Shown here: positions 7,993 to 29,862 of the stretch, piece by piece
How the letters are laid out: each line of letters opens with the position of its first letter
Numbering within the stretch: the first letter of the stretch is position 1
Source: Terriglobia bacterium
GTDB lineage: Bacteria; Acidobacteriota; Terriglobia; Acidiferrales; UBA7541
DNA length: 39,654 bases
Assembly: GCA_020072765.1 (NCBI GenBank)
Contig: JAIQGD010000015.1
Location: 1-39,654 of the forward strand
Direction: 5' to 3'
Notes under the pieces: model-generated
Seen by the model: only the letters and a program-made list of their open reading frames with translations
What the model was told of the DNA's origin: nothing
Databases searched by the model: none
Made by a program: the position numbers and the translations under genes

Positions 7993-8046
7993 CGGTCCTC
8001 TTCAACAATTGAGGCATTTCGAGAGACGAAGCGAAACACTTTGTAG

Positions 8047-8512: not shown

Positions 8513-8532
8513 GGCCTCTCCTTAATGTGGGG

Positions 8533-8895: not shown

Positions 8896-8942
8896 TTCAT
8901 CCTCATGTCTGTTCCGCGCAGGCGCAACCTTCGCCCGCGTTT

Positions 8943-9272
8943 TTAGTGGTTTCCCAAGGGCTTTCGGCCGAACCCCATTCGCCCTTTTCGAGGCGCATGG
9001 GCGCTGCGATAATCGTCGAGATCCGCATCCGTAATCCGGTAGTGCGTGCCCGGCGGATGATTGGCATAGGTGGCCAGCTCGCGCCGAAGCTTGGCCGAGC
9101 AAACGTCGGGAGCATCCTGATAGCGCACCCGGTGATCGTTAAACGCCTGGTTCGTGATGGTCAGCGTAAATTCCCGGGGGTCGACTAAAGGCTCCCGCAC
9201 CCTGAAGGTGTACTCGCGGACCAACGTTTTCACTTCAAACCCCACGAACTGCATGAGGATCTCGTGGCTCAC
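8943..9272 (-). CDS. Conserved-looking hypothetical protein (109 aa)
   Basis: The GTG start overlaps the stop of the preceding gene by four bases (GTGA), suggesting translational coupling; an internal ATG at codon 7 is an alternative. The sequence has an alternating polar/hydrophobic beta-like N-terminal half (VREYTFRVREPLVDPREFTLTI) and a basic C-terminus. No signal peptide, membrane segment or known motif is seen. The position between a Tudor-like protein and an RRM protein suggests a role in the same cold-shock/RNA group, by association only. Confidence 0.65.
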   Translation of the reverse strand: MSHEILMQFVGFEVKTLVREYTFRVREPLVDPREFTLTITNQAFNDHRVRYQDAPDVCSAKLRRELATYANHPPGTHYRITDADLDDYRSAHAPRKGRMGFGRKPLGNH

Positions 9273-9511
9273 TTGGAGCCGGCGATCGACGCGATAGCGG
9301 GAGCCGCTGCGACCGCTTTCTTGACCCGTTTCGCGCGCCGCCGCTTGGGCGGTGTGCCTTCGGCGGGGGTGACCACCATCAAGCTGGTGACAAACTTCTT
9401 CATGCCGTGGAGATCGAAATCGATCGACGTTCGTTCAGAATCCGACTCGGTGACGACACCCAGGCCATACTGGAAGTGCTGGATGTATGCTCCTTCTTGA
9501 AGAGCTTTCAC
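9269..9511 (-). CDS. Small protein with a Tudor/SH3-like (DUF3553/UvrD-tail-like) domain (80 aa)
   Basis: The GTG start at 9511 is four bases after a perfect AAGGAGG; a longer frame to 9586 would run through the cold-shock gene's terminator and is rejected. Residues 6-45 (EGAYIQHFQYGLGVVTES...IDFDLHGMKKFV) match by eye the small five-strand barrel found at the C-terminus of UvrD/PcrA helicases and in DUF3553 proteins (V.H..FG.G.V, then I.F...G.K). The tail is Lys/Arg/Ala-rich and could contact nucleic acid. The stop overlaps the next gene by four bases. The domain assignment is by pattern only. Confidence 0.7.
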   Translation of the reverse strand: MKALQEGAYIQHFQYGLGVVTESDSERTSIDFDLHGMKKFVTSLMVVTPAEGTPPKRRRAKRVKKAVAAAPAIASIAGSK

Positions 9512-9543
9512 GGGGCCTCCTTGGAACGATTTCATCTGGTGCC

Positions 9544-9580
9544 AAAAAAATGGGCGAGTCCGCCGGTGGCGGACCCGCCC
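9544..9580 (-). terminator. Intrinsic terminator of the cold-shock gene
   Basis: In the minus-strand RNA a 13-bp GC-rich stem (one G.U pair) with a three-base loop (9552-9580) is followed by seven U (9544-9550). It starts six bases after the csp stop codon. The U-tract flank TGCCAAAAAAATGG (plus strand) is identical to that of the terminator at 9848-9881. Confidence 0.9.
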
Positions 9581-9586
9581 TGCCAA

Positions 9587-9790
9587 TTACAAGCTCGAAA
9601 CGTTCGAGGCCTGCAGGCCCTTGGGGCCGGTGGTCACTTCGAATTCGACCGCTTGGCCTTCGTTCAGCGATTTGTATCCTTCCGACTGAATCGCGGAAAA
9701 ATGGACGAAAACGTCCTCGCCGGACTGGCGCTGGATGAACCCGAAGCCCTTGCTGGCATTAAACCACTTCACTGTTCCTTGTTCTTTCAC
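9587..9790 (-). CDS. cspA: Cold-shock protein, CspA family (67 aa)
   Basis: A complete five-strand OB-fold cold-shock domain of standard length. RNP1 reads KGFGFIQ and RNP2 reads VFVHFSAI; these aromatic residues bind single-stranded RNA or DNA. Family role: an RNA chaperone that melts secondary structure, often but not always cold-induced. The start is GTG, with AAAGGA seven bases ahead. An intrinsic terminator follows directly (9544-9580). About 57 bases upstream another terminator-like hairpin (9848-9881) faces the same way, so the leader may be subject to attenuation. Whether this copy is cold-induced cannot be told from sequence. Confidence 0.96.
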
Positions 9791-9847
9791 GGTAATCCTT
9801 TTCTGCTATTTGAGCTATTTGGTGCTTCTCGACCGCCTCAAGCTGCC

Positions 9848-9881
9848 AAAAAAATGGCCTGCAAGTGTGGACTTGCAGGCC
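9848..9881 (-). terminator. Intrinsic terminator (or leader attenuator) upstream of csp
   Basis: Perfect 10-bp inverted repeat GGCCTGCAAG/CTTGCAGGCC with a six-base loop (9856-9881), followed on the minus strand by A then seven U (9848-9854). This is a textbook rho-independent terminator, but no protein gene lies ahead of it in that direction for over 600 bases. It may end a small RNA transcribed from 9882-10400, act as an attenuator in the csp leader, or be the remnant of a lost csp copy. Confidence 0.85.
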
Positions 9882-10558
9882 TTCAAGAAGTCTAAAGGTT
9901 TCACAAGAGCAACAAACGCATATACAGCATAACACACCAGACGCCCCGGACCTAACGAAATCCCCCGCAGCTTCGCACTCTGAGATTCAACGCCCCGGAA
10001 ATTCAGACAATGAGACGTCCCGGGCGCCAGACAGGCGCGTGAGACAATTAGATTGCGACTGAATATAAAGGAGATACAACAGTCATCTAAATGCGCAGGC
10101 TCTCAAAAAACTTATCTATACCCAACGCCTAGCTTCCCCTAACACCTGCTCCATGAACGAGATACGTCGAGAGAAGGCGTTATGCAACGGCACCAGGCCA
10201 CCCTACTGCGATATTCGGAATAAGCTCCCAGCAACATGCGATGCATGATAGGCAAAGTGTGCCGCAACGTCGTTCCAGTACCAAGCCGATTTTCTGTGTA
10301 AATCTCGTGGCGAAAAATAGAACTATTTATTTCAATTATTTGGAGCGGAACATGGCGATTCAAAATTTTCCGCGGAAGGATTGCCGCATGCCAAGTTTCC
10401 TATTTCTTTTTCGAAAAACGTCTCAGTTTTGAGACGGACCGGAGATACCTGCGAACGCTTACTTTCCGAAAGCAACTCTGGAATTTGAGCTTCACGTGTG
10501 TATGATCTATCCTCCGGCGGCGGCAAATCGGCCGGGCATACGGCACCAGGGGGGGCGC
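9882..10558. other. AT-richer non-coding stretch, possible small-RNA locus
   Basis: No convincing protein gene is seen on either strand; base composition is clearly more AT-rich than the flanks. It holds three loosely repeated CGCCCCGGA/CGTCCCGGG blocks (about 9940-10030) and a 7-bp hairpin CGTCTCA-GTTT-TGAGACG (10419-10436). A TATGAT box at 10501-10506 could serve as -10 for the gene at 10559, with a poor -35 (CTGGAA, 17-base spacer). A minus-strand transcript ending at the terminator at 9848 would have to start here. Confidence 0.4.
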
Positions 10559-11719
10559 ATGGCAAAGGCGAAGCATGGCTTGGCGGAGGACAGACTTCAA
10601 CACCTGAAACACGTGATCGAGGACGATATCCGGCGCGGCCGCTATTACGGCGCCGTCATCCTGGTGGCGCGGCACGGCGTGATCGGCCTGCATGAGGCCA
10701 TCGGCCACACCAATGCCACGGACCGCCGGCCAGTCACCAAGAAGTCGGTCTTCAGCCTGTTCTCGACCACCAAGGCGATCACCAATATCCTCGTGTTCCG
10801 CGCCATGGAACGGGGCCAGTTCGCGCTGACCACCAAAGTGTCCGAGATCATTCCGGAATTTTCCGGAGGCCGCCGCCAGGACGTCACCTTCTATCATCTG
10901 CTGACGCACAGTTCGGGATTGCCCAGCATCTTCAGCGTTGGTCCCGGAGGCTACATCGATGTGCTGGACGAAGTCGTCGCCTTCATCTGCAAGGAGGTTC
11001 ATAGCGTCGCGGAGCCCGGAGAGTTGGTGACCTACGCGCCCATGGTGGCGCACGCGCTGATGGGCGAGGCTCTGCGGCGGACCGATCCGAAGAAGCGTTC
11101 CTACCGCCGGATCGTCGAGGAGGAACTTCTCAAGCCGCTGAAGATGAAGGAAACCTCCGTGGGCGTTCGCGCCGATCTGAAAGCCCGCCACATCGTCCCG
11201 ATCTTTCTCTCGGAGCTACCGATGCTGCATCCCGGGCACAGCAATTACGGCCCGCATGGCGCGTTCCAGGAAGAGCAGGCGGAGATGCCGTGGGTCGGCT
11301 GCATCTCCACGGTGTCCGACATGTTCCGATTCGCCGAGATGTTGCGGCGCGGCGGCGAACTCGACGGCGCGCGGATTATCTCCCCGGCCACTCTCGATGC
11401 CGCGACGCGAAACCGGACCGGCGAAAAACCCAACGAGCTGTACAAAGCCCTGATGGCGGGGCCCCGGGGCTGGGAGCCCTATCCTGCTTATATCGGGCTG
11501 GGTTTCTTTCTCCGGGGAGAAGCCATCTGCCATCATCAGTTCGGCACACTGGCTTCGCCGCGGACCTTCGGCAACTACGGCGCAGGAAGCTCGCTCTTCT
11601 GGGTGGACCCCGAGCGCGACATGACGTTCGTCTGCCTTTCCGCCGGCGTCATGAGCGAACCCGACAACGTCGAGCGCTACCAGCGGCTCTCGGACATCGC
11701 CCTGTCGGCGGCGGTCTGA
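10559..11719 (+). CDS. Class C beta-lactamase-fold serine hydrolase (386 aa)
   Basis: The ATG follows a G-rich Shine-Dalgarno stretch; an upstream in-frame ATG at 10496 gives an unlikely N-terminus. The SxxK nucleophile motif is S69-T-T-K72, the Tyr motif is probably VTYAPMVAH, and the third motif region is NYGAGSSLFW near the C-terminus. There is no signal peptide, so it is probably a cytoplasmic esterase or amidase of the EstB/penicillin-binding-protein type rather than a resistance enzyme. A perfect 11-bp hairpin follows (11743-11771), separating it from the flavoprotein operon. A second, divergent member of the family lies at 14444, suggesting ester substrates in this pathway. Confidence 0.88.
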   Translation: MAKAKHGLAEDRLQHLKHVIEDDIRRGRYYGAVILVARHGVIGLHEAIGHTNATDRRPVTKKSVFSLFSTTKAITNILVFRAMERGQFALTTKVSEIIPEFSGGRRQDVTFYHLLTHSSGLPSIFSVGPGGYIDVLDEVVAFICKEVHSVAEPGELVTYAPMVAHALMGEALRRTDPKKRSYRRIVEEELLKPLKMKETSVGVRADLKARHIVPIFLSELPMLHPGHSNYGPHGAFQEEQAEMPWVGCISTVSDMFRFAEMLRRGGELDGARIISPATLDAATRNRTGEKPNELYKALMAGPRGWEPYPAYIGLGFFLRGEAICHHQFGTLASPRTFGNYGAGSSLFWVDPERDMTFVCLSAGVMSEPDNVERYQRLSDIALSAAV

Positions 11720-11742
11720 TCCCGCGCGCGCGGCGCCCGGAT

Positions 11743-11771
11743 CGCGCCGGACGGTGCGAGCGTCCGGCGCG
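11743..11771 (+). terminator. Strong hairpin between hydrolase gene and flavoprotein operon
   Basis: Perfect 11-bp inverted repeat (CGCGCCGGACG with its complement) around a seven-base loop, 24 bases after the stop codon. There is no U-tract, so intrinsic termination is uncertain; it may be an RNA-processing or transcript-stabilising element. Confidence 0.5.
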
Positions 11772-11782
11772 CCGAATGCTTC

Positions 11783-11812
11783 TTGACAGGGCCACCGGTT
11801 TTTCGACAGAGT
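11783..11812 (+). promoter_or_regulatory. Candidate promoter of the flavoprotein operon
   Basis: A perfect TTGACA -35 box (11783-11788) lies 85 bases before the flavoprotein start. The best -10 at normal spacing is weak (CAGAGT, 18-base spacer), which would fit an activator-dependent promoter. It sits just after the hairpin at 11743-11771. Confidence 0.35.
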
Positions 11813-11873
11813 ATGCGCGCACATCATCCAGGGCGAATGCAGGTCCTGCCTGATCATACGTAGAGGAGCCATC

Positions 11874-13454
11874 ATGCGAGTCCCGCCGGGCGTGACAGCA
11901 TCGGATTTTTCCGAGGCGCTCAAGCAATTCGCCGAAGCCATCGGTAAGGAATGGGTCTTCACCTCGGACGAGGATCTGGATCTGTATCGCGACGCGTATT
12001 CGCCGTTCTGGCACGAGCAGGAGGACCATGTGGTCTCCGCGGCCGTGGCTCCCGACGGCGTCGAGCAGGTCCAGAAGATCGTGCGGATCGCCAATATCTA
12101 TAAGATTCCCCTGTGGACCATCTCGACCGGAAGGAACTTGGCGTACGGCGCCACCTCGCCGGCCCTTTCCGGCAGCGTGATTCTCGATCTCAAGCGCATG
12201 AACCGCATCCTGGAGGTCAACGACCGGAATCACTACGCGCTGGTCGAGCCCGGGGTCAGTTACTTTGATCTGTACCAATACATTCAGGAACACAACCTGA
12301 AGGTCTGGATCGATCCGGCCGATCCCGGATGGGGCAGCCCCATGGGCAACGCCCTGGATCGCGGCGGGGGCCGGACTCCCATGCGGGACCACTGGTCGGC
12401 CGTGTGCGGCATGGAAGTCGTGCTGGCCAATGGCGAGGTGATGCGCACGGGCATGGGCGCTCTGCCGGGTTCCAAGACGTGGCAGCAGTACAAGTACGGC
12501 TTCGGACCGTATGTGGACGGCATCTTTTCGCAATCCAATTTCGGCGTGGTCACGAAAATGGGCATTTGGCTGATGCCCGCGCCGGAAGCCTATTTCGACG
12601 GCCGCGTCATGGTGCCCCAGCACGACGACCTGATCCCCTTCGTCGATACGGTTTGCTACCTGATGAATTCCAACATCCTGCGCGGCACGATGATGCTGGA
12701 AAGCCCGGTGCTGGACTACCGCGTATCGCAGGGCGGCGCGGCCTTCGACATGCCCGGCGGCCCTTCGGTCGAGGAAATGAATCGCCTGGCCAAGGAGAAG
12801 AATCTTCCGTATTGGGCCGCCGACCTTCGTTTCTGGGGGCCGAAGAAAGTCATTGAGGCGCAATGGGAATTCGTGAAGCAGAAGTTTTCGGAAATTCCCG
12901 GCGCCACGTTCAAGGACGGCCGCTCCTACGTGTTCCCCGCCGAGATCAAGGAATCCGCCGCCGACGTGCTGGTCGCGCTGGGCATCCCCAATTTGGGCGT
13001 CTTTGGGCTGATTCAGGGCGCCGACGGGCACCTGGGGTTCTCGCCTATCCTGCCGATGACCGCCGAAGCCATCTTCGAGGCGCTGAAAGTGTACGGGGAG
13101 CTCTATGCGGAGCTCGGCGTCTCCCCGAAGAATCAGTTTGCCGCTCTTCCGTGGTCGTATTACCCGCGCGCGTTCGTCCTGCTCTTCGGTGTGTCGATCT
13201 ACCGCGACAGGGAAAAGAACAAGAAGAGCCGCGAGATTTTCAAGCGACTGGTGGAAGTATCCGCCAAGCACGGCTGGGGAGAATATCGCACCCACGTCGC
13301 CTTCATGGACACGGTGGCGGATACCTACACCTTTAACAATCATGCGCTGCACCGGTTCCATGAAACGTTGAAGGACGCCGTCGATCCCAACGGGATTCTT
13401 TCCCCCGGGAAGTCCGGCATCTGGCCGAAACGCCTGCGGAAGGAAAAGGCCTAG
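11874..13454 (+). CDS. VAO/PCMH-family FAD-linked phenol oxidoreductase (526 aa), copy 1
   Basis: Homologue of vanillyl-alcohol oxidase, p-cresol methylhydroxylase flavoprotein and eugenol hydroxylase, which oxidise para-substituted phenols via a quinone methide. N-terminal FAD-binding (PP-loop) domain: STGRNLAYGA and the RGGGRTPMRDHW region, whose Asp172 matches VAO Asp170. The C-terminal cap ends with GWGEYRTH, whose Tyr471-Arg472 match the phenolate-binding Tyr503-Arg504 of VAO. A YYPRAF segment (429-434) lies near where the family attaches FAD covalently; its role is inferred. No signal peptide. Usual length. RBS GAGGAG. First gene of a close-set run to 19551 (gaps 37-75 bases). Unlike copy 2 it has no cytochrome gene immediately behind it, so its acceptor could be the cytochrome/PQQ protein, the shared cytochrome, or oxygen. 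Confidence 0.92.
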   Translation: MRVPPGVTASDFSEALKQFAEAIGKEWVFTSDEDLDLYRDAYSPFWHEQEDHVVSAAVAPDGVEQVQKIVRIANIYKIPLWTISTGRNLAYGATSPALSGSVILDLKRMNRILEVNDRNHYALVEPGVSYFDLYQYIQEHNLKVWIDPADPGWGSPMGNALDRGGGRTPMRDHWSAVCGMEVVLANGEVMRTGMGALPGSKTWQQYKYGFGPYVDGIFSQSNFGVVTKMGIWLMPAPEAYFDGRVMVPQHDDLIPFVDTVCYLMNSNILRGTMMLESPVLDYRVSQGGAAFDMPGGPSVEEMNRLAKEKNLPYWAADLRFWGPKKVIEAQWEFVKQKFSEIPGATFKDGRSYVFPAEIKESAADVLVALGIPNLGVFGLIQGADGHLGFSPILPMTAEAIFEALKVYGELYAELGVSPKNQFAALPWSYYPRAFVLLFGVSIYRDREKNKKSREIFKRLVEVSAKHGWGEYRTHVAFMDTVADTYTFNNHALHRFHETLKDAVDPNGILSPGKSGIWPKRLRKEKA

Positions 13455-17599: not shown

Positions 17600-19198
17600 A
17601 TGAGACTTCCGCCCGGCGTGAGTAGCCAGGATTTCTCGAGCGCGCTGCGTCAATTTGAAGAAGCGATCGGCAAACCATGGGTGTTCACGTCCGACGAGGA
17701 CATGGACACCTATCGCGACTCCTACTCTCCCTTCTGGCACGAAGACGAGGATCCCGTCCCCTCCGCGGCGGTCGCTCCGGACGGGGTCGAGCAAGTCCAG
17801 CAAGTCGTCAAGATCGCCAACGCCCATAAGATTCCTCTCTGGACGATCTCCACGGGAAAAAATCTCGGCTATGGCGGCTCCGCGCCGGTCCTCTCCGGCA
17901 GTGTGATCCTCGACCTCAAGCGCATGAACCGGATTCTGGAGGTCAACGAGCACAATCATTACGCGCTCGTCGAACCCGGCGTCAGCTACTTCGATCTCTA
18001 CCGCTACATTCAGGAGCGCGGGCTGCGCGTCATGGTGGACGCGGCCGATCCCGGCTGGGGCAGCGTGCTCGGCAACGCCATTGACCGCGGAGGCGGCCAC
18101 ACGCCGATGCGCGATCACTTCGACGCGCACTGCGGCCTGGAAGTCGTTCTCGCCGACGGCGAACTCCTGCGCACCGGCATGGGCGCGCTGCCCGGCGCGA
18201 AGACCTGGCAGCAGTACCGCTACGGCTTCGGCCCCTATGTCGACGGCATCTTTTCGCAGTCCAATTTCGGCGTGGTCACCAAGATGGGCATGTGGCTCTA
18301 CCCGCAGCCCGAGGTCCACATGCAGGCCACGGTCACCGTTCCGCGCCACGATGACCTGATTCCGCTCGTGGACATCGTCGCCTATCTCATGAATTCCGGC
18401 ATCGTCACCAGCACCACCCAGTTCGCCACCCCCCTGTTCAGCGGACCGCAGGAAGATTCCGAGCTTTCCGCGCTTCGCGCGAGGCCGGACGCGCCTTCGG
18501 CGCAAGAGCTCGAGCAGCTCTTCCAGCGCAAGAATCTCGGCTACTGGAGCGTGGATTTGCCCTTCTATGGGCCCGCTAAGGTCGTCGCCGCGCAATGGGA
18601 ATATGCCCGCCAGAGATTCTCCGCCATTCCCGGCGCGACATTTCAGGAAGGAAAGCTGTACCGCTTTCCCCTCGACCCCAAGGAACTCGAACAGGTTCCC
18701 AATCCCGTGCTGCTGGGTGTGCCCAACCTCGCCATCTTCGGCATCGGAGGCCCGCGCAGCCAGGGCCACCTGTGGTTCTCGCCCATCATTCCGATGACGG
18801 GAGAAGCGGTGTTCGAGGCGCAGAAGGTGTTCGCCACCGCCTACCGGGAATTGGACCTGCCCGTCATCGCCGCCGGCCAGACGTTCTTCGGCCCCGCGTC
18901 CAATTACCCGCGCTGCTTTCTGATTCTGTTCGGATTCCCGGTCGAACACGACATCGAAAAGAACCGCAAGAACCGCGCCGCGTTCAAGCACCTGGTTCAG
19001 ATTGCCGCCGAGCACGGCTGGGGAGAGTACCGCACGCATACGGCGTTCATGCAGACGGTTTCCGACGCCTACAGCTTCAACAACCACGCGCTGCGGCGCT
19101 TCAACGAAACGATCAAGGACACCATTGATCCCAACGGCATCCTTTCGCCCGGCAAATGCGGCATCTGGCCCAAACACCTCCGGGAGGCAAAACCATGA
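17600..19198 (+). CDS. VAO/PCMH-family flavoprotein subunit (532 aa), copy 2, paired with cytochrome
   Basis: Close paralogue of the gene at 11874, similar along the whole length. The same key residues are present: RGGGHTPMRDHF with Asp172, and GWGEYRTH with Tyr477-Arg478 (phenolate site). The family's covalent-FAD region reads NYPRCF (435-440). No signal peptide. Its stop overlaps the start of a small cytochrome c gene by four bases (ATGA), the arrangement of p-cresol methylhydroxylase and eugenol hydroxylase, where the flavoprotein passes electrons directly to a bound cytochrome subunit. Expected reaction: hydroxylation or dehydrogenation at the benzylic carbon of a 4-alkylphenol, with water as oxygen source. 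The actual substrate is unknown. Confidence 0.93.
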   Translation: MRLPPGVSSQDFSSALRQFEEAIGKPWVFTSDEDMDTYRDSYSPFWHEDEDPVPSAAVAPDGVEQVQQVVKIANAHKIPLWTISTGKNLGYGGSAPVLSGSVILDLKRMNRILEVNEHNHYALVEPGVSYFDLYRYIQERGLRVMVDAADPGWGSVLGNAIDRGGGHTPMRDHFDAHCGLEVVLADGELLRTGMGALPGAKTWQQYRYGFGPYVDGIFSQSNFGVVTKMGMWLYPQPEVHMQATVTVPRHDDLIPLVDIVAYLMNSGIVTSTTQFATPLFSGPQEDSELSALRARPDAPSAQELEQLFQRKNLGYWSVDLPFYGPAKVVAAQWEYARQRFSAIPGATFQEGKLYRFPLDPKELEQVPNPVLLGVPNLAIFGIGGPRSQGHLWFSPIIPMTGEAVFEAQKVFATAYRELDLPVIAAGQTFFGPASNYPRCFLILFGFPVEHDIEKNRKNRAAFKHLVQIAAEHGWGEYRTHTAFMQTVSDAYSFNNHALRRFNETIKDTIDPNGILSPGKCGIWPKHLREAKP

Positions 19199-19912: not shown

Positions 19913-21862
19913 ATGATACCCAAAGCTGTCTCTTCCACCAGGCGCGCGGCGGTTTCTCCGCGGCGGGTGCCGGTTTGGACGAAAACCGTCTGGCTGGCTC
20001 TGGCGTGCTGTTTCCTGGCGGTCATGACGGCGCACGCGCAAATTTCTCCCGGCCCGCTCGCCCGCGCTCATCAATCGCTCAGCGGACCCACGCAGTGCAC
20101 CAGTTGCCATGCGCTCGGCAAGGGCGCGGCGGCCCTGAAATGCCAGGAGTGCCACACCGAGATCGCGCACGAACTCGCGCAGGGCCGCGGTCTGCACGCG
20201 CGCTTCCAGGACAAGGAAAACTGCGCCCGCTGCCACTCCGAGCACAACGGAGAAGATTTCGGGCTGATCCACTGGGAGCCCTCGCTCAAGGACTTCGATC
20301 ACCGGCAAACCGGCTACACCCTCGAGGGCAAGCACACCGGAATCGAGTGCGGGAAATGCCACACGCCCGCGCACATCAGCGCGGCGGTCCGGCCTTCGAT
20401 CCAGATGAAGGACCTGCGCCGGACGTTCCTGGGGCTTTCGCAGGAGTGCGTCGCTTGCCATGACGATCCGCATCACAGCCAGCTCGGCCAGAATTGCGTG
20501 AAATGCCACAATTTCACCGACTGGAAAGCCGCCTCCAAGATCGATCACGATAAGACGCGCTTCCCGCTCACCGGACTCCACGCCAAGGTCGAGTGCGCGA
20601 AGTGCCACACTCCGGCCACGCCCAAGGGACAGCCGCGATTCACCGGCATCCCCTTCGCCAAATGCTCCGATTGCCACACCGATCCCCACCGCGGCGCGTT
20701 CGCGCAATCCTGCGAATCGTGCCACACCACGGAGAGCTGGAAGAAGATTTCGGGCGGCCGCCAGTTCGATCATTCGAAGACGAAGTATCCCCTGGAGGGG
20801 AAACACGCGCAGGTGGATTGCATCAAGTGCCACGCGAGTGCGAATTTCAAAAAGCCCGTGGCGTTCGCCAAATGTTCCGATTGTCACCAGCCCGACCCGC
20901 ACGGCGGCCAATTCGCCGCGCGGAAGGACCGCGGCGAGTGCTCGGCGTGCCACACGGTTGCTGGGTGGAAGCCGTCTTCGTTCGGCGTGAAGGAGCATGC
21001 CTCTTCGGCCTACGCACTGGAAGGCAAGCACGCCGGCGTCTCCTGCGATAAATGCCATCTCCCTGCCGGCAAGGCCACGCGATACAAAGTCGCGTTCGCC
21101 AACTGCCTGGACTGCCACAAGGACGTTCATAGCGACCAGTTCGCGCAGGCGCCCTACAACAATCGCTGCGAGCAATGCCATTCGGTAAAGGGATTCCGCC
21201 CCTCCAGCTACACCCTCGCGCAGCACCAGAAGAGCCGTTTCCCCCTTTCCGGCGGGCATGTCGCCGTCGCCTGCGGGGAGTGCCACGCCGGCGGCCGGGC
21301 CGGCTATCCGGAAAAGGTCGCCGCGTATCGCTTTGCGGATCGCTCATGCACCGGCTGCCACAAGGATCCGCACCAGGGCCAGTTCAAGGAGCGCATGGCG
21401 GAGAAGCGTCCCAACGGCTCCCCGCTCGGGTGCGAGGCGTGCCATACGGTCAAGTCCTGGACCGATTTGCCGGGCTTCGACCATTCCAAGACGTCGTTTC
21501 CCCTGCGCGGCGGCCACGCGAAAGTTGCCTGCGAAAAATGCCACAAGTCGGCCGAGCCTGGCGGCAAAATCAGCGAAGCCTCGTTTCGCTCGGCGCCCAC
21601 GGCCTGCTCCGGGTGTCACCAGGACGTGCACGCCGGCCAATTTACCAAGGGCGGCCAGCCGGTGGCTTGCGAGCGGTGTCACACCGAGGATCACTGGAAG
21701 CCATCCCTTTTCGATCACGAGAAGCAGACCGATTTTTCGCTTCGACCAGCCCACAAAAAGGTCGCCTGTAATGACTGCCACACGAACTTCCGGTTCCTCG
21801 GCGGAAAACAGGTCCTGGTGTACAACCTGGCCCCGCGCGAATGCGCCCGCTGCCACAATTGA
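19913..21862 (+). CDS. Exported 23-haem c-type cytochrome (649 aa)
   Basis: I count 23 CxxCH motifs, one per about 28 residues, from CTSCH near residue 62 to CARCH ending two residues before the C-terminal Asn. Signal peptide with twin-basic start (STRRAAVSPRR), a hydrophobic core and AHA cleavage; GTG 19910 is an alternative start. A recurring module F-D-H-x-x-T-x-F/Y-P-L-x-G-x-H-x-x-V-x-C-x-x-C-H alternates with CSDCHxDPHxGQF segments; the extra His residues probably give bis-His coordination. Such dense chains act as nanowire-like electron conductors in the periplasm or across the outer membrane. No lipobox and no transmembrane segment beyond the signal. It lies 260 bases ahead of a 28-haem relative and an outer-membrane barrel, suggesting a conduit. 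No catalytic domain is seen. Confidence 0.95.
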   Translation: MIPKAVSSTRRAAVSPRRVPVWTKTVWLALACCFLAVMTAHAQISPGPLARAHQSLSGPTQCTSCHALGKGAAALKCQECHTEIAHELAQGRGLHARFQDKENCARCHSEHNGEDFGLIHWEPSLKDFDHRQTGYTLEGKHTGIECGKCHTPAHISAAVRPSIQMKDLRRTFLGLSQECVACHDDPHHSQLGQNCVKCHNFTDWKAASKIDHDKTRFPLTGLHAKVECAKCHTPATPKGQPRFTGIPFAKCSDCHTDPHRGAFAQSCESCHTTESWKKISGGRQFDHSKTKYPLEGKHAQVDCIKCHASANFKKPVAFAKCSDCHQPDPHGGQFAARKDRGECSACHTVAGWKPSSFGVKEHASSAYALEGKHAGVSCDKCHLPAGKATRYKVAFANCLDCHKDVHSDQFAQAPYNNRCEQCHSVKGFRPSSYTLAQHQKSRFPLSGGHVAVACGECHAGGRAGYPEKVAAYRFADRSCTGCHKDPHQGQFKERMAEKRPNGSPLGCEACHTVKSWTDLPGFDHSKTSFPLRGGHAKVACEKCHKSAEPGGKISEASFRSAPTACSGCHQDVHAGQFTKGGQPVACERCHTEDHWKPSLFDHEKQTDFSLRPAHKKVACNDCHTNFRFLGGKQVLVYNLAPRECARCHN

Positions 21863-22121
21863 AGTCGCGGGCGCCGCTGGCAACCCCTCACCACACAACC
21901 GAATCCAACCTGCGCCCGCCCCAACCATCTGCCGTACAGAGCAGCCCGCCTGGATCGGCAGGCTGCCGAGGGAACCTGTGTCCGTCGCCGAGAAGTATCG
22001 CATGCCTGAACGAAACCTGACCTTGCGTACAGTTGTGACGCCCCGCTCGCAAGGTTACTCTTTCAGGAATCTAGGTTTTTCAGGAAAGCCGGCCCGTAAA
22101 CCTAAGGGGAATTGGTGTCCC

Positions 22122-24290
22122 ATGTACTGGACGGCACTCATAGAATTGCTGCTCTTGCTACTGACCTTCGCGGGCCCCGCGGCTGTATCCGCGCACGCGC
22201 AGAAGGACAGGAACACCAATCGGAATCCGCACGGGCTCCTCAACATGCCCTGCGAGAATTGCCACACCAATTCCGGCTGGAAACCCATTCGCGGCGTTCC
22301 GGAGTTCGACCACAACCGCACCAGCTACGCGCTGCGGGGCATGCATCAGAAGGTCGCCTGCGCGCAGTGCCACACCAATCTCGTCTTCACCCAGATCGGC
22401 ACGCGCTGCGCCGATTGCCATGCCGACCTGCATCGCGGCCAGTTTGGCGCGAAATGCGAGGAGTGCCACACCGTCCAGGGCTGGCAGGTCCGCACCCAGC
22501 ATCTCAAGGATCACATGAACCGGTTCCCACTGCTGGGCGCGCACGCCATGGTGGATTGCGTCGATTGCCACAAGAACGAAGCGGCGGGACAGTTTACCGG
22601 CCTTTCGACGGCCTGCTACTCCTGCCACACCGCCGACTTCCAGAACGCCACCGGGCCCAACCACAAGACGCTGAACTTCCCGGTCACCTGTGATGCGTGC
22701 CATACCGCCGACACCTGGTTCGGCGCGAAATTCGATCACTTGAAGTACACCGGCTATGCTCTCACCGGAGCCCATGCCACGCTGGACTGCACGGCCTGCC
22801 ACATCAACGGAAGATTCGCGGGCACTCCGGCCGATTGCTATAGCTGCCACGTCAAGGATTACAACGGCACCACCAGCCCGAATCACGTCAAGGCCGGCAT
22901 CCCGACGCAATGCTCGACGTGCCACAATACAACCGCCTGGATCCCTGCGTCGTTCGACCACAACCTGACGTCGTTCCCGCTGACCGGAGCGCACGTCACC
23001 GTGCTCTGCGCCACCTGCCACACCGACAATTACGCCGGCACGCTGCCCACCGCCTGCTACGGCTGCCATGCCAAGGACTTCAACAACACCGCCACGATCG
23101 GCGGAAGCGTGCCCAATCATGTCAACGGAGGTTTCTCGCAGAATTGCATTCTCTGCCATACGACCCAGACATGGCTCAATGCCACGTTCGACCACAGCCT
23201 CACGGCGTTTCCGCTCACCGGCGCGCACCTCACCGTCGCCTGCGCCACCTGCCACACCGACAACTATGCGGGCACGCTGCCCACGAATTGCTACGGCTGC
23301 CATGCCAAGGACTTCAACAACACAGCGAACATCTCCGGCGTTCCCAATCACGTCAACGCCGGTTTCTCGCAGACGTGCACGCTCTGCCATACGACCACCA
23401 CCTGGCTCAATGCCACATTCAATCACAACGCCACGGCGTTTCCGCTCACCGGCGCGCACCTCACCGTCGCCTGCGCCACCTGCCACACGGACAACTACGC
23501 CGGCACGCTGCCCACCACCTGCTACGGCTGCCATGCCAAGGACTACAGCAACACGGCGACCATTGCGGGCGTGCCCAACCACGTCACGGCCAACTTCCCG
23601 CAGGACTGCACGCTGTGCCACAGCACTTCGACCTGGCTGAACGCCACCTTTAATCACAACAACACATCGTTCCCGCTCACCGGCGCGCACCTCACGGTCG
23701 CCTGCGCCACTTGCCACACCGACAACTACGCCGGCACGCTGCCCACCACCTGCTACGGCTGCCACACCAAGGACTACAACAACACCGCCACCATTGCAGG
23801 CGTGCCCAATCACGTGACCGCGGGGTACCCGACCGACTGCACCATGTGCCACAACACGACGAGCTGGCTGGGAGCGGTGTTCGATCACAACAAGACTCCC
23901 TTCCCGCTCACCGGCGCGCACGTCACGGTCCCCTGCGCCAGTTGCCACATCGGCGGGGTCTACGCCGGAACACCGACCGACTGCTACTCGTGCCATAAGG
24001 CCGACTACGCCGGGACGACCAATCCGAATCACGCCGCGGCGGGTTTCCCGACCACCTGCGCAACCTGTCACACGACCACCAGCTGGCTGGGGGCCACGTT
24101 CAACCATACCTGGTTCCCGATGAACCATGGCACGGCCAAAACGTGCAGCGATTGCCATACGAATCCGTCGAACTACGCGGTCTTCACCTGCACGACGTGC
24201 CACACAAAATCGCAGACCGATTCAAACCATCAAGGCGTGTCGGGCTACGTCTACAACAGCGTCAACTGCTATTCGTGCCACAAGAATTAG
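22122..24290 (+). CDS. Exported 28-haem repeat cytochrome c (722 aa)
   Basis: I count 28 CxxCH motifs, one per about 26 residues. Signal peptide MYWTALIELLLLLLTFAGPAAVSAHA. The first third resembles the 23-haem protein (FDHNRTSYALRGMHQKVACAQCH). Residues about 285-670 are a tandem array of 77-residue, three-haem units (CATCH, CYGCH, CTLCH in each), encoded by 231-bp repeats. The interhaem sequence is rich in Asn, Thr and Ala with few charges, unlike the first cytochrome, suggesting an exposed or outer-surface fibre-like domain. The start at 22122 is chosen because it gives the signal peptide; the frame is open back to 21258 only as a shadow of the previous gene. The barrel gene follows after 17 bases, so the two are surely co-transcribed. 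Function inferred: long-range electron transfer. Confidence 0.95.
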   Translation: MYWTALIELLLLLLTFAGPAAVSAHAQKDRNTNRNPHGLLNMPCENCHTNSGWKPIRGVPEFDHNRTSYALRGMHQKVACAQCHTNLVFTQIGTRCADCHADLHRGQFGAKCEECHTVQGWQVRTQHLKDHMNRFPLLGAHAMVDCVDCHKNEAAGQFTGLSTACYSCHTADFQNATGPNHKTLNFPVTCDACHTADTWFGAKFDHLKYTGYALTGAHATLDCTACHINGRFAGTPADCYSCHVKDYNGTTSPNHVKAGIPTQCSTCHNTTAWIPASFDHNLTSFPLTGAHVTVLCATCHTDNYAGTLPTACYGCHAKDFNNTATIGGSVPNHVNGGFSQNCILCHTTQTWLNATFDHSLTAFPLTGAHLTVACATCHTDNYAGTLPTNCYGCHAKDFNNTANISGVPNHVNAGFSQTCTLCHTTTTWLNATFNHNATAFPLTGAHLTVACATCHTDNYAGTLPTTCYGCHAKDYSNTATIAGVPNHVTANFPQDCTLCHSTSTWLNATFNHNNTSFPLTGAHLTVACATCHTDNYAGTLPTTCYGCHTKDYNNTATIAGVPNHVTAGYPTDCTMCHNTTSWLGAVFDHNKTPFPLTGAHVTVPCASCHIGGVYAGTPTDCYSCHKADYAGTTNPNHAAAGFPTTCATCHTTTSWLGATFNHTWFPMNHGTAKTCSDCHTNPSNYAVFTCTTCHTKSQTDSNHQGVSGYVYNSVNCYSCHKN
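22977..24130 (+). repeat. 231-bp tandem repeats inside the 28-haem cytochrome gene
   Basis: The block beginning CCGCTCACCGGCGCGCACCT recurs at 22977, 23211, 23442, 23673 and 23904: spacing 234, then 231 three times. Each unit codes for 77 residues with three haem motifs. The middle three are nearly identical in DNA over long stretches, showing recent duplication or gene conversion; the outer two diverge. Confidence 0.93.
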
Positions 24291-24307
24291 GTAGGGGCGT
24301 GGGGGCG

Positions 24308-26050
24308 ATGATCGAGCAACGAATTCTGTGGGCGCTGGCCGCTCTTCTGGCCGCTTGCGCCGTACTCCCGGCCCTCGCCCGGGCCCAGGAATCGTCCGAA
24401 CGCCTCACGTTTCACGTCAAATACATCGCGCAGGATGTGGTCTATCTCGATGGCGGCCGCGCCGCCGGTTTGCAGGAGGGCCAGCAGTTGACCGTCGAGC
24501 ACCCTGCCACCCCCGCCGCGGCGGGCCCGGACGCGCCCGCTCCGTCGCCCTCAGGCATCATCGCCTCGCTCAAGGTTGTTTCCGTGGCCGCCTCCTCCGC
24601 CGTGTGTGAGATCTCCAACGCCACCGGCCCGGTGCAGGTCGGCGATCTGGCTCGCTTGCCCGCTCAGGAAGTCCAAGCCAGACGGGCCCAGCAGCAAGAG
24701 CAGCAACGAATCACCGGGGGACGCGCCTACCCGCAAATCATCTCCTTCACCTCCGGCGATCCGGTGGTGGAAGAAGCGCGCGCCTCAGTCCCGCGCCCGC
24801 CTTCGCCGGAAATCAACCGCATGCGGGGACGCATCGGCATGGAATACAGCACGCTGTTCACCCACACCACGCCCTCGGCCACCAGTTCGGACGTCGGCAT
24901 GGTGGCGCGCTTCGACATGACGCGGATCGGCGGCACCTACTGGAATTTCTCCGGCTACTGGCGCGGCCGCTTCCGGTCGCTCTCCGGCGGCGCGCAGCCC
25001 GTGACCATCAGCGACCTCATCAATCGCACCTATCATCTCGCGCTCACCTACAACAATCCCAACTCGAGCTGGGTGGCCGGAGGAGGCCGCCTCTACCTGC
25101 CCTGGGCCTCCAGCCTGGACACCATCGACGGCGGATATTTCGGCCGCAAAACACGCAACAACACGATCGTCGGGGTTTTCGGCGGCTCGACCCCCGACCC
25201 AACCTCCTACGATTACAATCCGAACCAGCACATCGCCGGCGGCTTTGCCAATTTCTCCGGCGGCGATTTCGACAGCACGCGCTACACCGCCACGGTCGGC
25301 GTGGCCTTCAGTTCCATCAACTGGCAACCCAGCCGCCAGTTCCTGTTCACCGAGACGGGAATCTTCTTCAAGCGCAATCTGGCTCTCTACCACGCCCTGG
25401 AAATCGACGCGCCGCACACCGCCATCACCCAGCCGGCAACTTCCACGACGCCGGCGGTCGCGACCAGCACCGGAGGGCTGAACCGCAGCTATCTGACCCT
25501 GCGCTACGACCCCAATCCGCGGCTCGAACTCAGCCTGAGCGATGTCTACTTCCGCGATTTCCCCACTTTCGATCCCAATCTGATCGGCACCGGCCTGCTG
25601 GACCGCTATCTGTTTCAAGGCCTAAGCGGCGGCGTGCGCGTGAATCTTCCCCGGAAAATCGCCGTGTACACCAATATCGGCCAGAGCTCCCGCACCGGCG
25701 ACGCCAAAAGCTCCTGGAATCAGTTGTACGGCATCACCTTGGGCGATATCCGCAAGATCGGAATGCGCGTCGACCTGCGCTATTCGAAGTTCAGCAGTTC
25801 GTTCGGAAGCGGAGATTACAAAGCCGTGTCGCTGTCGCGCCAGATCAGCCAATCGCTGGACTGGCAGCTGATCGGCGGCCTGCAGAATTTCAATTCGCCG
25901 ATGACCAAAACGTCGCAGACGCACTTCATCAACACCTATCTCGATTGGTCGCCGGGAAAGATTCTCTTCTTCAACGCCGGCTACACGTGGCAGCGCGGCG
26001 GGACGATGAACTATGACCAGTTTCAGGTCATCGTTGGAAAGCGTTTCTGA
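24308..26050 (+). CDS. Outer-membrane beta-barrel protein, probable porin partner of the multihaem cytochromes (580 aa)
   Basis: Signal peptide (MIEQRILWALAALLAACAVLPALARA), then a periplasmic domain of about 130 residues (a small beta-domain with VVYLDGGRAAGLQEGQQL, then a Gln/Arg-rich linker). From about residue 170 the sequence is a long series of amphipathic strands with aromatic girdle residues (GTYWNFSGYWRGRF, SSWVAGGGRLYLPW, KILFFNAGYTWQR) and ends in Phe (VIVGKRF), the classic barrel C-terminus for BAM recognition. The size allows some 20 or more strands. It lies 17 bases after the 28-haem gene, as barrels do beside cytochromes in porin-cytochrome (Mtr/Pcc-type) conduits. No homology to MtrB can be claimed by eye. 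Confidence 0.85.
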   Translation: MIEQRILWALAALLAACAVLPALARAQESSERLTFHVKYIAQDVVYLDGGRAAGLQEGQQLTVEHPATPAAAGPDAPAPSPSGIIASLKVVSVAASSAVCEISNATGPVQVGDLARLPAQEVQARRAQQQEQQRITGGRAYPQIISFTSGDPVVEEARASVPRPPSPEINRMRGRIGMEYSTLFTHTTPSATSSDVGMVARFDMTRIGGTYWNFSGYWRGRFRSLSGGAQPVTISDLINRTYHLALTYNNPNSSWVAGGGRLYLPWASSLDTIDGGYFGRKTRNNTIVGVFGGSTPDPTSYDYNPNQHIAGGFANFSGGDFDSTRYTATVGVAFSSINWQPSRQFLFTETGIFFKRNLALYHALEIDAPHTAITQPATSTTPAVATSTGGLNRSYLTLRYDPNPRLELSLSDVYFRDFPTFDPNLIGTGLLDRYLFQGLSGGVRVNLPRKIAVYTNIGQSSRTGDAKSSWNQLYGITLGDIRKIGMRVDLRYSKFSSSFGSGDYKAVSLSRQISQSLDWQLIGGLQNFNSPMTKTSQTHFINTYLDWSPGKILFFNAGYTWQRGGTMNYDQFQVIVGKRF

Positions 26051-26053: not shown

Positions 26054-26881
26054 ATGACGACCTTGGCAGCCACAAAGCGCGTTTCCCACTGGGTCCCCGG
26101 CGTTCTTGCGAGCGCCCTGGCACTGCTGGCTCTGCTCGCGCCGCTCCCGGCTCGCGCGGGATCGCCGGATGCGCCCGATCCCCTGCTGGCGAAGAGCCGC
26201 GCCCTGGTCGAGCAATTCAGCCAGGACTTCTCCTCGCTGCGATACGACGAAGACATCGAGCAGCAGAAATTGAAAGCCAACGACCGCGTCGATTACCACC
26301 GCACGACGCTGTTTGATTCCATCCTGATCATTCGCTGCGAGGAAGGCGGTGTGCGCGTCACCGAGCAGCGCCTCACGGAAAAGAGTCCCACCCACGTGGA
26401 CGCGCGTCCCCTGCTGGTGACCTACGGCTTTTCGGCGCTGGCCATGGTCTTGCACCCCAGCTACGAATCCAGTTTCCGTTTCACGCGCCTGGGCGACGAC
26501 GCCGTGCAGGGCGCGGCGCTCACCCGCTACCGCTTCGAGCATCTGCCCGGCACGCCCTCGCCCATCCTCTACCAGATGATCGTGCAGGACCGCCCCTTGG
26601 ACCTCAGCGGCACAGCCTGGCTCGACCCGGCCACCGGCGCGATCCACCGCATCGAGGTGGAAGTCGGCTCCACCATGTCCGACGTGGGCGTGAAATCGCT
26701 TCGCGCCGTGCTGGAATACGGGCCCGTCGCGCTGCAGGGCGAACCCCAGCCGCAGTGGCTGCCCGTATCCGCAACCGTTGACTTGGAAACGCCGCGCCAG
26801 CACTGGCGCAATATTCATCGCTTCTCGGAATACCGCAAATTCCGCGTGGACGTAAAGCTGGCCGGAGGTACCCAACCGTGA
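26054..26881 (+). CDS. Exported periplasmic protein of unknown function (275 aa)
   Basis: Signal peptide to about residue 35 (PLPARA). The mature part resembles, in pattern only, LolA-like or outer-membrane lipoprotein-carrier folds: alternating strands such as YRFEHLPGTPSPILYQMIV, then SGTAWLDPATGAIHRIEVEV. Only one cysteine (in IIRCEEGG) and no haem motif. It begins four bases after the barrel stop and overlaps the next gene by four bases (GTGA), so it is tightly built into the electron-transfer operon. It may help assemble the barrel or cytochromes; that is guesswork from position. Confidence 0.8.
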   Translation: MTTLAATKRVSHWVPGVLASALALLALLAPLPARAGSPDAPDPLLAKSRALVEQFSQDFSSLRYDEDIEQQKLKANDRVDYHRTTLFDSILIIRCEEGGVRVTEQRLTEKSPTHVDARPLLVTYGFSALAMVLHPSYESSFRFTRLGDDAVQGAALTRYRFEHLPGTPSPILYQMIVQDRPLDLSGTAWLDPATGAIHRIEVEVGSTMSDVGVKSLRAVLEYGPVALQGEPQPQWLPVSATVDLETPRQHWRNIHRFSEYRKFRVDVKLAGGTQP

Positions 26882-27819
26882 GCATCAATCTCTCGATTCG
26901 CGCTCTCGCAGCGCCCGTCGCCGATCCCGAGCGCCCTCATCGCCGCCGCGTCGCCGCAGCCTGGGCCCTGGCAACCGCCCTGGTGCTCGCCATCGCCGCC
27001 TACGGCTTCGATTACTACACGCTGGGCGCCGCCGCCCGCCCGCTTTCGCCCAAGCACGCCCTCCTGCGCCCCAGCGGCGCCATCGGCATCAAGCTCGGCA
27101 TCCTGGGCGTGGGGCTCTTCTTCCTGATCTACCTCTACTACTTCCGCAAGCGCTGGAAGTGGCTGGGCCGCTTGGGCGTCAACCGTCACTGGCTGGACTT
27201 TCACGTCGTGCTGGGCGTCGCTTCTCCGGTCATCATCGCGTTTCACTCGGCCTTCAAGTTCCGCGGCATTGCCGGCATGGCGTTCTGGATCATGCTGGCC
27301 GTGGCCCTGAGCGGCATCGTGGGCCGCTACCTGTACGCCCAGATTCCCCGCCATCTCAACGCCGCGGAATTATCGTGGCAGGAGTTGCAGGAGGAGCAGT
27401 TGACTCTGGCCAGCCAGATGGCCTCTCAGAAAGTATTCCCGGCCGACCGACTAGTGGCCGCCTTCCATGTGCCCAGCGCGGAGATGGTCAAACACAAATC
27501 CGCCATCGGAGCCATCGTCTGGATGTTGATGCTCGACCTCGTGCGCCCGTTTCGCGTCGCCTCGCTCCGCCGGCAGGTGCTGGGCTTCGGCGGCATCATC
27601 TTCAGCCTGGGCGGCCTGTTGCGCAGCACGCACGACGAACTGGAAACGGTCGTCCGCATCGCCCAGCAGCAAGCCGCGCTCTCCAAGCGCATGGTGTTCC
27701 TCAGCCGGACGCAGGAAATCTTCCAGCTTTGGCACGTCATCCACCGGCCCTTCAGCTATGCGTTTATCGTTTTGGCACTCTTGCACATCGGAACAGCTAT
27801 GTTGCTCGGCTACTTGTAG
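26878..27819 (+). CDS. Membrane protein with cytochrome-b-like di-haem His pattern (313 aa)
   Basis: The GTG start overlaps the upstream gene by four bases. About five membrane helices: roughly 25-47, 67-89, 104-126, 131-153 and 291-313, with a long soluble loop between the fourth and fifth. Helix three carries H109 and H123, and the last helix region carries H289 and H303; both pairs are 14 residues apart, the spacing that holds two b haems in cytochrome b. Extra His at 104 and 286 flank them. No CxxCH. It would pass electrons across the inner membrane between quinone or the ferredoxin/FAD protein encoded next and periplasmic cytochromes. I do not recognise a named family; the b-haem call rests on the His spacing. 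Confidence 0.8.
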   Translation: MSINLSIRALAAPVADPERPHRRRVAAAWALATALVLAIAAYGFDYYTLGAAARPLSPKHALLRPSGAIGIKLGILGVGLFFLIYLYYFRKRWKWLGRLGVNRHWLDFHVVLGVASPVIIAFHSAFKFRGIAGMAFWIMLAVALSGIVGRYLYAQIPRHLNAAELSWQELQEEQLTLASQMASQKVFPADRLVAAFHVPSAEMVKHKSAIGAIVWMLMLDLVRPFRVASLRRQVLGFGGIIFSLGGLLRSTHDELETVVRIAQQQAALSKRMVFLSRTQEIFQLWHVIHRPFSYAFIVLALLHIGTAMLLGYL

Positions 27820-27920: not shown

Positions 27921-29306
27921 ATGGACACACTGTTCGCTTTCGTGATCTCCGCCGTGGTGCTGCTGTTCTTCATGCGCCGCTACCTCAAGGATTTGAAGAA
28001 GAGCGAGGCACGGGCTCGCGCTGCCGCGGAAAAAGCCAAACTGCGCTCCGATGGCCCGCGCGCCCAGCATCCCCACATCGACGCTGAATACTGCATCGGC
28101 TGCGCCGCGTGCACTTCGGTCTGCCCGGAAGGCGACGTTCTCGCCATGCTCGGGGGCAAGGCCGCCATCGTCAACCCCTTCAAGTGCATCGGCCACGCGC
28201 TCTGCGCCGATATCTGCCCCGTCGGAGCCATCGCCATGGTCATGGCCAGTCCCAGCGTGAGCGCGGACATGCCCCGCCTCACCCCCGAGTATGAGACCTC
28301 CGTGCCCAACCTCTTCATCGCCGGTGAACTCGGCGGGCTGGCCTTAATCAAAAACGCCGTCTCCCAGGGCCGCGACTCCATCGATCACATTGCCAACCGC
28401 CTGGCTTCGCAACGCACATCCTCGCCAAGCCCCGAGGTGCATGACGTCTTCATCGTCGGCGCTGGCCCGGCGGGAATCAGCGCCTCCCTGCGCGCCATCG
28501 AACGCAAACTCAATTACATCACCGTCGACGAAGGCGAGATCGGCGGCACCGTGGCGAAATATCCCCGCCAGAAACTCGTCCTGACCAGCCCCGTCGAGTT
28601 CCCCATGCACGGAAAGTTCACCAAAACGGAGCTTTCCAAGGAAGACCTGATGGCCTTCTGGAGCAAGGTTCTGGAGCGCGCGGACTTCCAGTATCGCCCG
28701 GGCGAAAAGGTCGAGGACATCCGCAAAGGCGAAGACGCCCTCTTCACCATTACCACCACCAAGGGACAATACCGCGCGCGCGCCGTCGTGCTAGCCATGG
28801 GACGCGCCGGCAGCCCCCGAAAACTCGGCGTCAAGGGCGAGGAACTGCCCAAGGTGATGTACCGCTTGATCGAAGCCGACCACTACATCAACAAACACAT
28901 TCTCGTCGTCGGCGGCGGAGACAGCGCGGTCGAGGCCGCCATGGGGCTGGCGCATCAGGTTGGAAACACCGTCACCCTCTCCTACCGCCAGGATTCCTTC
29001 TCCCGCATCAAGGAGCGCAACTCCCAGCGCATCGCCGAGTGCATCCGCAAAGGAAAGGTCACGGTGCTGTATAATTCTCAACCGGTGGAATTCAAGGCGC
29101 GTTCCGTCATGCTCGACGTGAAAGGCGAAACACGGGAGATTCCCAACGATTTCGTCTGGATCTTCGCCGGCGGCGAGGCCCCCAACGCCTTCCTGAAAAA
29201 GATCGGCGTGGGATTTGGCAGCCGCGATCTGACGTCCGAGGCCGGCAACGAGGTCAAGCGCGCCGCTTCCAAAACCGGAGGCTCGCCCGTCCTCGCTGGA
29301 CGATGA
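27921..29306 (+). CDS. Membrane-anchored ferredoxin-FAD/NAD(P) oxidoreductase (461 aa)
   Basis: N-terminal membrane helix (3-19), then a basic linker and a bacterial-type ferredoxin domain (54-105). Cluster 1 has the normal C58-x2-C61-x2-C64-x3-C68-P. Cluster 2 is C89-x2-H92-x2-C95-x3-C99-P, with His for the second Cys. From residue 174 there is a two-dinucleotide-domain flavoprotein of the thioredoxin-reductase/YpdA type: first Rossmann motif VGAGPAG, second VGGGDSA. No redox-active CxxC, so not a thioredoxin reductase. It probably links NAD(P)H or ferredoxin to the neighbouring b-type membrane protein and so to the cytochromes. It follows that gene by about 100 bases. Direction of electron flow is unknown. 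Confidence 0.88.
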   Translation: MDTLFAFVISAVVLLFFMRRYLKDLKKSEARARAAAEKAKLRSDGPRAQHPHIDAEYCIGCAACTSVCPEGDVLAMLGGKAAIVNPFKCIGHALCADICPVGAIAMVMASPSVSADMPRLTPEYETSVPNLFIAGELGGLALIKNAVSQGRDSIDHIANRLASQRTSSPSPEVHDVFIVGAGPAGISASLRAIERKLNYITVDEGEIGGTVAKYPRQKLVLTSPVEFPMHGKFTKTELSKEDLMAFWSKVLERADFQYRPGEKVEDIRKGEDALFTITTTKGQYRARAVVLAMGRAGSPRKLGVKGEELPKVMYRLIEADHYINKHILVVGGGDSAVEAAMGLAHQVGNTVTLSYRQDSFSRIKERNSQRIAECIRKGKVTVLYNSQPVEFKARSVMLDVKGETREIPNDFVWIFAGGEAPNAFLKKIGVGFGSRDLTSEAGNEVKRAASKTGGSPVLAGR

Positions 29307-29346: not shown

Positions 29347-29862
29347 ATGAAAACATATCTGCCGATGATCGCTCTGTTTCTCGCCGCCGCCTTGGTGTGC
29401 GGCTGCAACAAGAATAGCCAGCCCGCGCCCGCTTCCAGCAGCGCCATGCCGCCCATGGGAACTCCCGCCGAGGCGACTCCGCCTGCCGGCGCGCCGTCGC
29501 CGGCTTCGGCCAGCGATTCCGACGCTATCCGCAAAGCCATCGAAGCCCATCTGGGCGACAACAAGGGAATCAACATGTCCGTGATGGATATGGCCCTCAA
29601 CAATGTGCAGGTCCACGGCGACCAGGCCCAGGCCGACGCCGTGTTCCGCCTCAAGCAGGGCGGCGCCACCATGCAGATGACCTACTTCCTCGAACGCCAC
29701 GCCGGCGGCTGGCTCGTCCTCCGCAACCAGGCCGCGGGCGGCCAATTCCAGCACCCGCCCACCGACAAGACCCACTCCGGCGCGGCTCCCAATTCCGCCA
29801 GCCCGTCCCTGCCCGACGTCGGCGGCTACCTCAAGGATCATCCGGCGCCCAGCAAACAGTAA
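29347..29862 (+). CDS. Putative lipoprotein (171 aa)
   Basis: Lipoprotein signal MKTYLPMIALFLAAALVCGC with lipobox-type VCGC (Cys20). A Pro/Ala/Ser-rich linker (24-56) leads to a domain of about 85 residues (DAIRKAIEAHLGDNKGINMSV...GGWLVLRN), a pattern seen in small NTF2-like or DUF4878-like lipoproteins. It is 41 bases after the ferredoxin/FAD gene and probably closes the electron-transfer operon. Function unknown. Confidence 0.8.
   Translation: MKTYLPMIALFLAAALVCGCNKNSQPAPASSSAMPPMGTPAEATPPAGAPSPASASDSDAIRKAIEAHLGDNKGINMSVMDMALNNVQVHGDQAQADAVFRLKQGGATMQMTYFLERHAGGWLVLRNQAAGGQFQHPPTDKTHSGAAPNSASPSLPDVGGYLKDHPAPSKQ

Follow-up and report, generated by a model that had tools for sequence, protein, structure and literature searches.

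A candidate PCC3-like electron conduit with an invariant 23-haem cytochrome in an Acidobacteriota genome

Introduction

Do two exported multihaem cytochromes encoded directly before an outer-membrane beta-barrel form an electron conduit across the cell envelope, and if so, is the conduit of a known kind? The question is raised by contig JAIQGD010000015.1 of Terriglobia bacterium (GenBank assembly GCA_020072765.1), a stretch of 39,654 nucleotides that we refer to as the window and that belongs to the 3.78-Mb draft genome of an Acidobacteriota bacterium from soil or groundwater. A sequence-only reading of positions 19913-26050 had reported two exported cytochromes with 51 CxxCH motifs (23 + 28) directly before a barrel ending in Phe, and both the counts and the gene order were borne out. 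Our analysis suggested that the locus is likely to encode a PCC3-like conduit that carries electrons across the cell envelope; PCC3 was proposed for Proteobacteria by He et al. (2017; PMC5566968). This reading draws its direct support from gene content, conservation, haem-motif numbers, the signature of an inner-membrane protein (IMP), the co-occurrence of the genes and, at modest confidence, the barrel fold.

Gene content of the locus

The genes for cytA, cytB, the barrel, a protein termed X, the IMP and an Fe-S/FAD (flavin adenine dinucleotide) oxidoreductase form a run on the (+) strand, and a small lipoprotein gene comes next (lengths in amino acids, aa):

19913..21862, + strand: cytA, exported c-type cytochrome, 649 aa, 23 haems, 28.2 aa per haem (CxxCH count, Pfam, alignment)
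22122..24290, + strand: cytB, exported c-type cytochrome, 722 aa, 28 haems, 25.8 aa per haem (CxxCH count, Pfam)
22968..23949, + strand: tandem repeat within cytB, 231-bp unit, 4.2 copies (Tandem Repeats Finder, haem spacing)
24308..26050, + strand: outer-membrane beta-barrel, 580 aa, about 22 predicted strands, FlgT_C-like N-terminal domain, C-terminal Phe (model, fold search)
26054..26881, + strand: X, exported protein, between the barrel and the IMP in close relatives (synteny)
26878..27819, + strand: IMP, 313 aa, five hydrophobic stretches, likely a di-haem b protein (motifs, hydropathy)
27921..29306, + strand: membrane-anchored 4Fe-4S and FAD/NAD(P) oxidoreductase, ferredoxin-NADP-reductase-like (Pfam, PDB relatives)
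29347..29862, + strand: small lipoprotein, lipobox by reading, conserved nearby in many relatives

The extent first given, 19913-26050, holds genes of the conduit but stops short of the unit, which continues through three conserved genes to 29306. The longer frames listed at 21258 and 24143 are upstream read-through, and the natural starts probably lie at 22122 and 24308. In 9 loci a homologue of the lipoprotein lies beside the cluster. A search from 19 sequences found no credible relative of X in Pfam or the PDB, and a LolA-like identity for X was dropped for want of a supporting family match.

Conservation as a set

Of 101 related genomes, 21 gave the barrel, 21 a strong IMP match and 20 cytA, all within the same set of genomes, and the other 80 gave no strong match to any of the three. 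The sole genome with the barrel and without cytA (G025) has a contig that ends at the barrel. Cytochromes occurring without the barrel in most relatives had been named in advance as the pattern that would speak against a conduit, and no such pattern was found in these 101 genomes. The order cytA-cytB-barrel-X-IMP-FeS/FAD is kept in relatives. Within the genus of the host, the cluster is present in only 4 of 20 genomes (the host included) and is therefore an accessory trait; across the phylum, a barrel profile was positive in 28 of 396 sampled Acidobacteriota genomes.

These distributions bear on a different explanation, that the cytochromes store electrons or buffer redox state in the periplasm, with the barrel as a co-regulated porin for solutes or metals. 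The presence or absence of the genes as a set argues against it, as does the adjacency of cytB and the barrel, which survives even in distant loci with a barrel only about 22% identical: in nearly all of these, a cytB-like cytochrome directly precedes the barrel, and cytA, the IMP and often the flavoprotein lie close by where the contig reaches. On balance, we consider the electron store unlikely.

The cluster is also found outside the Acidobacteriota. Plasmid pEMTOL02 of Emticicia oligotrophica DSM 17448 (Bacteroidota) carries the IMP, FeS/FAD, cytA, cytB and barrel genes, with identities to the window proteins of 29%, 41%, 36%, 41% and 20%, respectively, and with 23 haems in cytA and 40 in cytB. 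This locus (NC_018749.1, 72000-100312) lies on a 100-kb plasmid, where a fused CcsA-type cytochrome biogenesis gene precedes the conduit cluster; the species was described from warm spring water. No mention of extracellular electron transfer was found in papers on Emticicia, in a search that ran outside subscription papers and preprints. Small plasmid clusters in Methylophaga and Pontibacter (L045, 9974-13328; L046, 5176-8663) lack a barrel and are perhaps a version of the same inner part; in them, a cytochrome is accompanied by a short protein at the place of the IMP and by either a flavoprotein or an Fe-S protein. A search of viral contigs for cytA gave no match.

Upstream of the cluster, the gene at 17600-19198 matches p-cresol methylhydroxylase (PDB 9h40, E 5e-184); a monohaem cytochrome c gene comes after it and ends at 19551, 361 bp before cytA. 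This arrangement would suit a conduit dedicated to discharging the electrons of phenol oxidation, with the p-cresol-methylhydroxylase-like flavocytochrome feeding the periplasmic wire. However, no homologue of these genes was observed beside the cluster in the relatives examined, so conservation of the system does not extend to this neighbourhood; the flavocytochrome was rejected as part of the conduit unit, and we regard the phenol outlet as highly improbable.

A fixed and a variable cytochrome

Residue-shuffled versions of cytA or cytB contain on average about 0.3 CxxCH motifs and at most 3 (2000 shuffles), so the observed counts are not due to chance; no CX3CH or CX4CH motif was found in either protein to add to them. 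By reading of the sequences, both proteins start with a hydrophobic signal stretch of the Sec type. With 52 His residues in cytA and 58 in cytB, at least one spare His is available per haem, and every haem could take two His ligands. Pfam matches above cut-off were PF14522/PF14537 for cytA, and cytB matched PF14522/PF02085.

The haem number of cytA is exactly 23 in all 27 intact copies, with all 23 motifs in shared alignment columns, although pairwise identity among the aligned proteins falls from 91% to 34%. A 28th sequence (L038), broken over two frames, was left out of the intact set; the copies split in this way have 19+4 motifs (L038) and 11+12 (L039). By contrast, relatives of cytB carry 13-51 haems (17 copies with both ends recognisable), and in 15 of these 17 the difference from 28 is a multiple of three (binomial p 4e-6, shared ancestry ignored). 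Each 231-bp unit of the repeat within the window cytB encodes 77 aa and three haems, with 83% matches between copies, and these tandem tri-haem units are likely to be a direct view of the cause of the three-step variation. cytA has no tandem repeat of this kind.

Since cytA is invariant at 23 haems while cytB varies, the simplest reading is that cytA bridges a fixed distance and cytB does not. From this contrast we infer that cytA is most likely a fixed-length wire spanning the periplasm from membrane to membrane, and that cytB is probably an expandable wire at the outer or extracellular side. By analogy with known haem wires, and not as a measurement made here, 23 haems would correspond to a length on the order of 18 nm, comparable to that of a periplasm. 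More tentatively, with the balance of our judgement somewhat against it, cytA may act as a molecular ruler spanning the periplasm from the b-type IMP to the barrel, its haem number held across phyla by envelope geometry, with an outer cytochrome that varies by tri-haem units and an Fe-S flavoprotein that links the wire directly to NAD(P)H. The very high haem density of the two proteins would also suit the storage of charge, a role that Arbour et al. (2020; PMC7399161) suggested for comparable proteins. A store, however, would not require one cytochrome to be conserved at exactly 23 haems while its partner varies freely.

The inner-membrane end

The hydrophobic stretches of the IMP lie at approximately 23-45, 65-89, 104-126, 128-150 and 291-313. 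Two WX3HX13H motifs (105-123 and 285-303) and an SGXXG motif (at 145) fall at the third, fifth and fourth stretches, respectively. This combination is the published signature of the PCC3/PCC4 IMP, for which a pair of bound b-haems has been proposed (PMC5566968). An alignment of 20 sequences, one of them from Bacteroidota, shows no change at the four His or at the SG..G residues, and the full signature was observed in 33 of 34 relatives' frames. To judge from these residues, the window IMP likely binds two b-type haems.

The adjacent oxidoreductase is anchored by an N-terminal membrane helix and combines Cys motifs of the ferredoxin type with a flavin domain; it matched the PF13738, PF07992 and Fer4 families. 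PDB relatives of the flavin domain include YpdA, thioredoxin reductase and thioredoxin reductase (TrxR)-like ferredoxin-NADP reductases. Because the flavin part has a single Cys and lacks the TrxR-type CxxC disulfide pair, a ferredoxin-NADP-reductase role appears likelier. Where a locus holds enough sequence, the gene mostly adjoins the cluster or lies close to it, in some cases on the opposite strand or at a distance of a few kb. Within residues 58-99 of the protein encoded here, the second ferredoxin-type motif has three Cys only (89, 95, 99); the Emticicia homologue has three Cys in each of its ferredoxin-type motifs, and the cluster type may be unusual. One relative's locus (L023, 14892-17105) holds a second homologue, which shares 44% identity and carries a longer, fused N-terminal part, a few kb past the conduit cluster.

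The outer-membrane barrel

The barrel ends in VGKRF, with Phe580 as the last residue. An AlphaFold2 model built from four sequences (mean predicted local distance difference test, pLDDT, 59.5) puts the strands at 34-116 into an N-terminal domain; a further set of about 22 long strands covers 171-579. Outer-membrane barrels are the top structural matches of this model, with Foldseek E values down to 2e-8 and a VIA Z of 16.7, which supports the barrel fold at modest confidence. The N-terminal domain weakly resembles FlgT_C, in 6 of 18 homologues, and the barrel matched no Pfam barrel family. OprD-type porins lead the structure matches. Among solved barrels, the model comes closest to substrate-specific porins of the OprD type and to TonB receptors, which speaks for a solute or metal porin beside an electron store. 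In a limited second look, which excludes nothing, no Mtr-type barrel stood among the fold matches listed.

Comparison with known conduits

A diverged member of the MtrCAB, OmbB-OmaB-OmcB or OmcS-type nanowire systems would account for sub-cut-off matches of the DmsE/MtrA type and for a match to PF22113 above its own cut-off. The weak Mtr-type matches can be traced to the shared haem motifs, however, and the profile scores are far below their cut-offs (DmsE, 49.7 versus 192; OmcA/MtrC, 11.7 versus 209). In addition, the MtrB/PioB barrel family PF11854 was matched neither by the barrel nor anywhere in the host genome, and a PDB sequence search with cytA, cytB and the barrel gave nothing significant, the nanowires OmcS, OmcE and OmcZ included. 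The earlier view that the cytochromes do not look like MtrA/MtrC is therefore upheld by the profile searches, and we give diverged membership very little weight. MtrCAB and MtoAB would work similarly, with a cytochrome wire in an outer-membrane barrel, but they have ten-haem cytochromes, a larger MtrB-family barrel and CymA-type quinol input (general knowledge and PMC5566968), and OmbB-OmaB-OmcB has octahaem and dodecahaem cytochromes, in contrast to the 23 and 28 haems of the window.

The locus shows every PCC3 feature tested, barrel size aside. Published PCC3 cytochromes have medians of 34 and 21 haems and 22-39 aa per haem (PMC5566968; PMC10734462), and the window cytochromes, at 28 and 23 haems, fall inside that density range. 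As in PCC3, a barrel accompanies two haem-rich cytochromes, one fairly stable in size and one variable, and an IMP of about 300 aa with five helices bears WX3HX13H on helices 3 and 5 and SGXXG on helix 4. PCC3 is also described with one cytochrome outside the cell and one in the periplasm, the placement predicted here for cytB and cytA. The window-type cytA differs in being fixed at 23 haems, as against a median of 21 and counts of 21, 24 or 27 in Gallionellaceae (PMC10734462); the locus also occurs in Acidobacteriota and Bacteroidota and adds a linked Fe-S/FAD reductase and an extra exported protein. PCC4, with three periplasmic cytochromes of 4, 5 and 10 haems (PMC5566968), is unlike the two cytochromes here. 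The porin-cytochrome conduit first suggested is well supported by the cytB-barrel adjacency and the co-occurrence of the genes, whereas the further suggestion of a new conduit type gives way to the published PCC3 features, which fit. As the likeness rests on published features and not on proteobacterial sequences, "works like PCC3" is firmer than "is PCC3".

Several points weigh against a PCC3-like conduit. The function of PCC3 itself is unverified according to a 2025 paper (PMC12442390). The modest-confidence barrel model (pLDDT 59.5) has about 22 strands, fewer than many reported PCC3 porins (up to 42), and a haem wire may or may not fit inside it. The AlphaFold2 model of cytA, from four sequences, reached only pLDDT 35 and is unusable, and the window cytB has no visible lipobox, so that its anchoring and export would need another explanation.

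Separate pieces of the conduit idea are already in the literature, since conduits with other barrels have been reported in Acidobacteria (Holophaga; PMC7399161) and ferredoxin-NADP reductases near porin-cytochrome clusters in karst metagenome-assembled genomes, with Acidobacteriota among the carriers (PMC13264449, 2026). In the latter, however, the reductase goes with a group of large decahaem cytochromes, and proteins of more than 20 haems form a separate group. The Burkholderiales S13 conduit (PMC7399161) likewise has two large cytochromes (24 and 49 haems) directly before the porin, the larger varying by gain or loss of CxxCH domains, but it is reported as OmbB-like and is betaproteobacterial, and the text consulted describes no IMP or flavoprotein. 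That a periplasmic cytochrome of PCC3 could span the periplasm has also been stated before (PMC10734462); the strict invariance of cytA is an addition of this analysis. Two further phyla, a linked ferredoxin-NADP-reductase-like partner and the strict 23-haem invariance of cytA appear to be new here. Within a search that left many journals outside, subscription papers and preprints among them, no paper turned up that reports the combination for these phyla or that pairs PCC3 with Acidobacteria.

Proposed electron path

If the proteins assemble into a complex, the two b-haems of the IMP would exchange electrons with cytoplasmic NAD(P)H by way of the Fe-S/FAD protein, with quinones, or with both. 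The 23-haem cytA would carry them across the periplasm, and they would pass by way of the beta-barrel through the outer membrane to the repeat-built cytB at or beyond the cell surface. The path may run in either direction and would end or start at a redox partner that is solid or large, such as an Fe/Mn mineral, humics or another cell.

Other observations in the window and host genome

A second FAD_binding_4 flavoprotein, encoded at 11874-13454, has a start much like that of the flavoprotein at 17600-19198. The gene at 8533-9102 on the (-) strand appears, by reading of its translation only, to encode an RNA-recognition-motif-type RNA-binding protein with a Gly-rich tail. On another contig of the host genome (C25, approximately 2617-12072), a further dense series of CxxCH-like codon motifs suggests additional large multihaem cytochromes.

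Implications

PCC3 has so far been regarded as proteobacterial, with iron oxidisers among its carriers. The same architecture in Acidobacteriota and on a Bacteroidota plasmid widens the range of possible mineral electron exchangers, and pEMTOL02 shows that a plasmid can carry the conduit cluster. In addition, an invariant 23-haem partner beside an expandable one makes the periplasm-bridging idea a testable prediction, and Emticicia oligotrophica is a cultured organism carrying the conduit cluster in which it could be tested.

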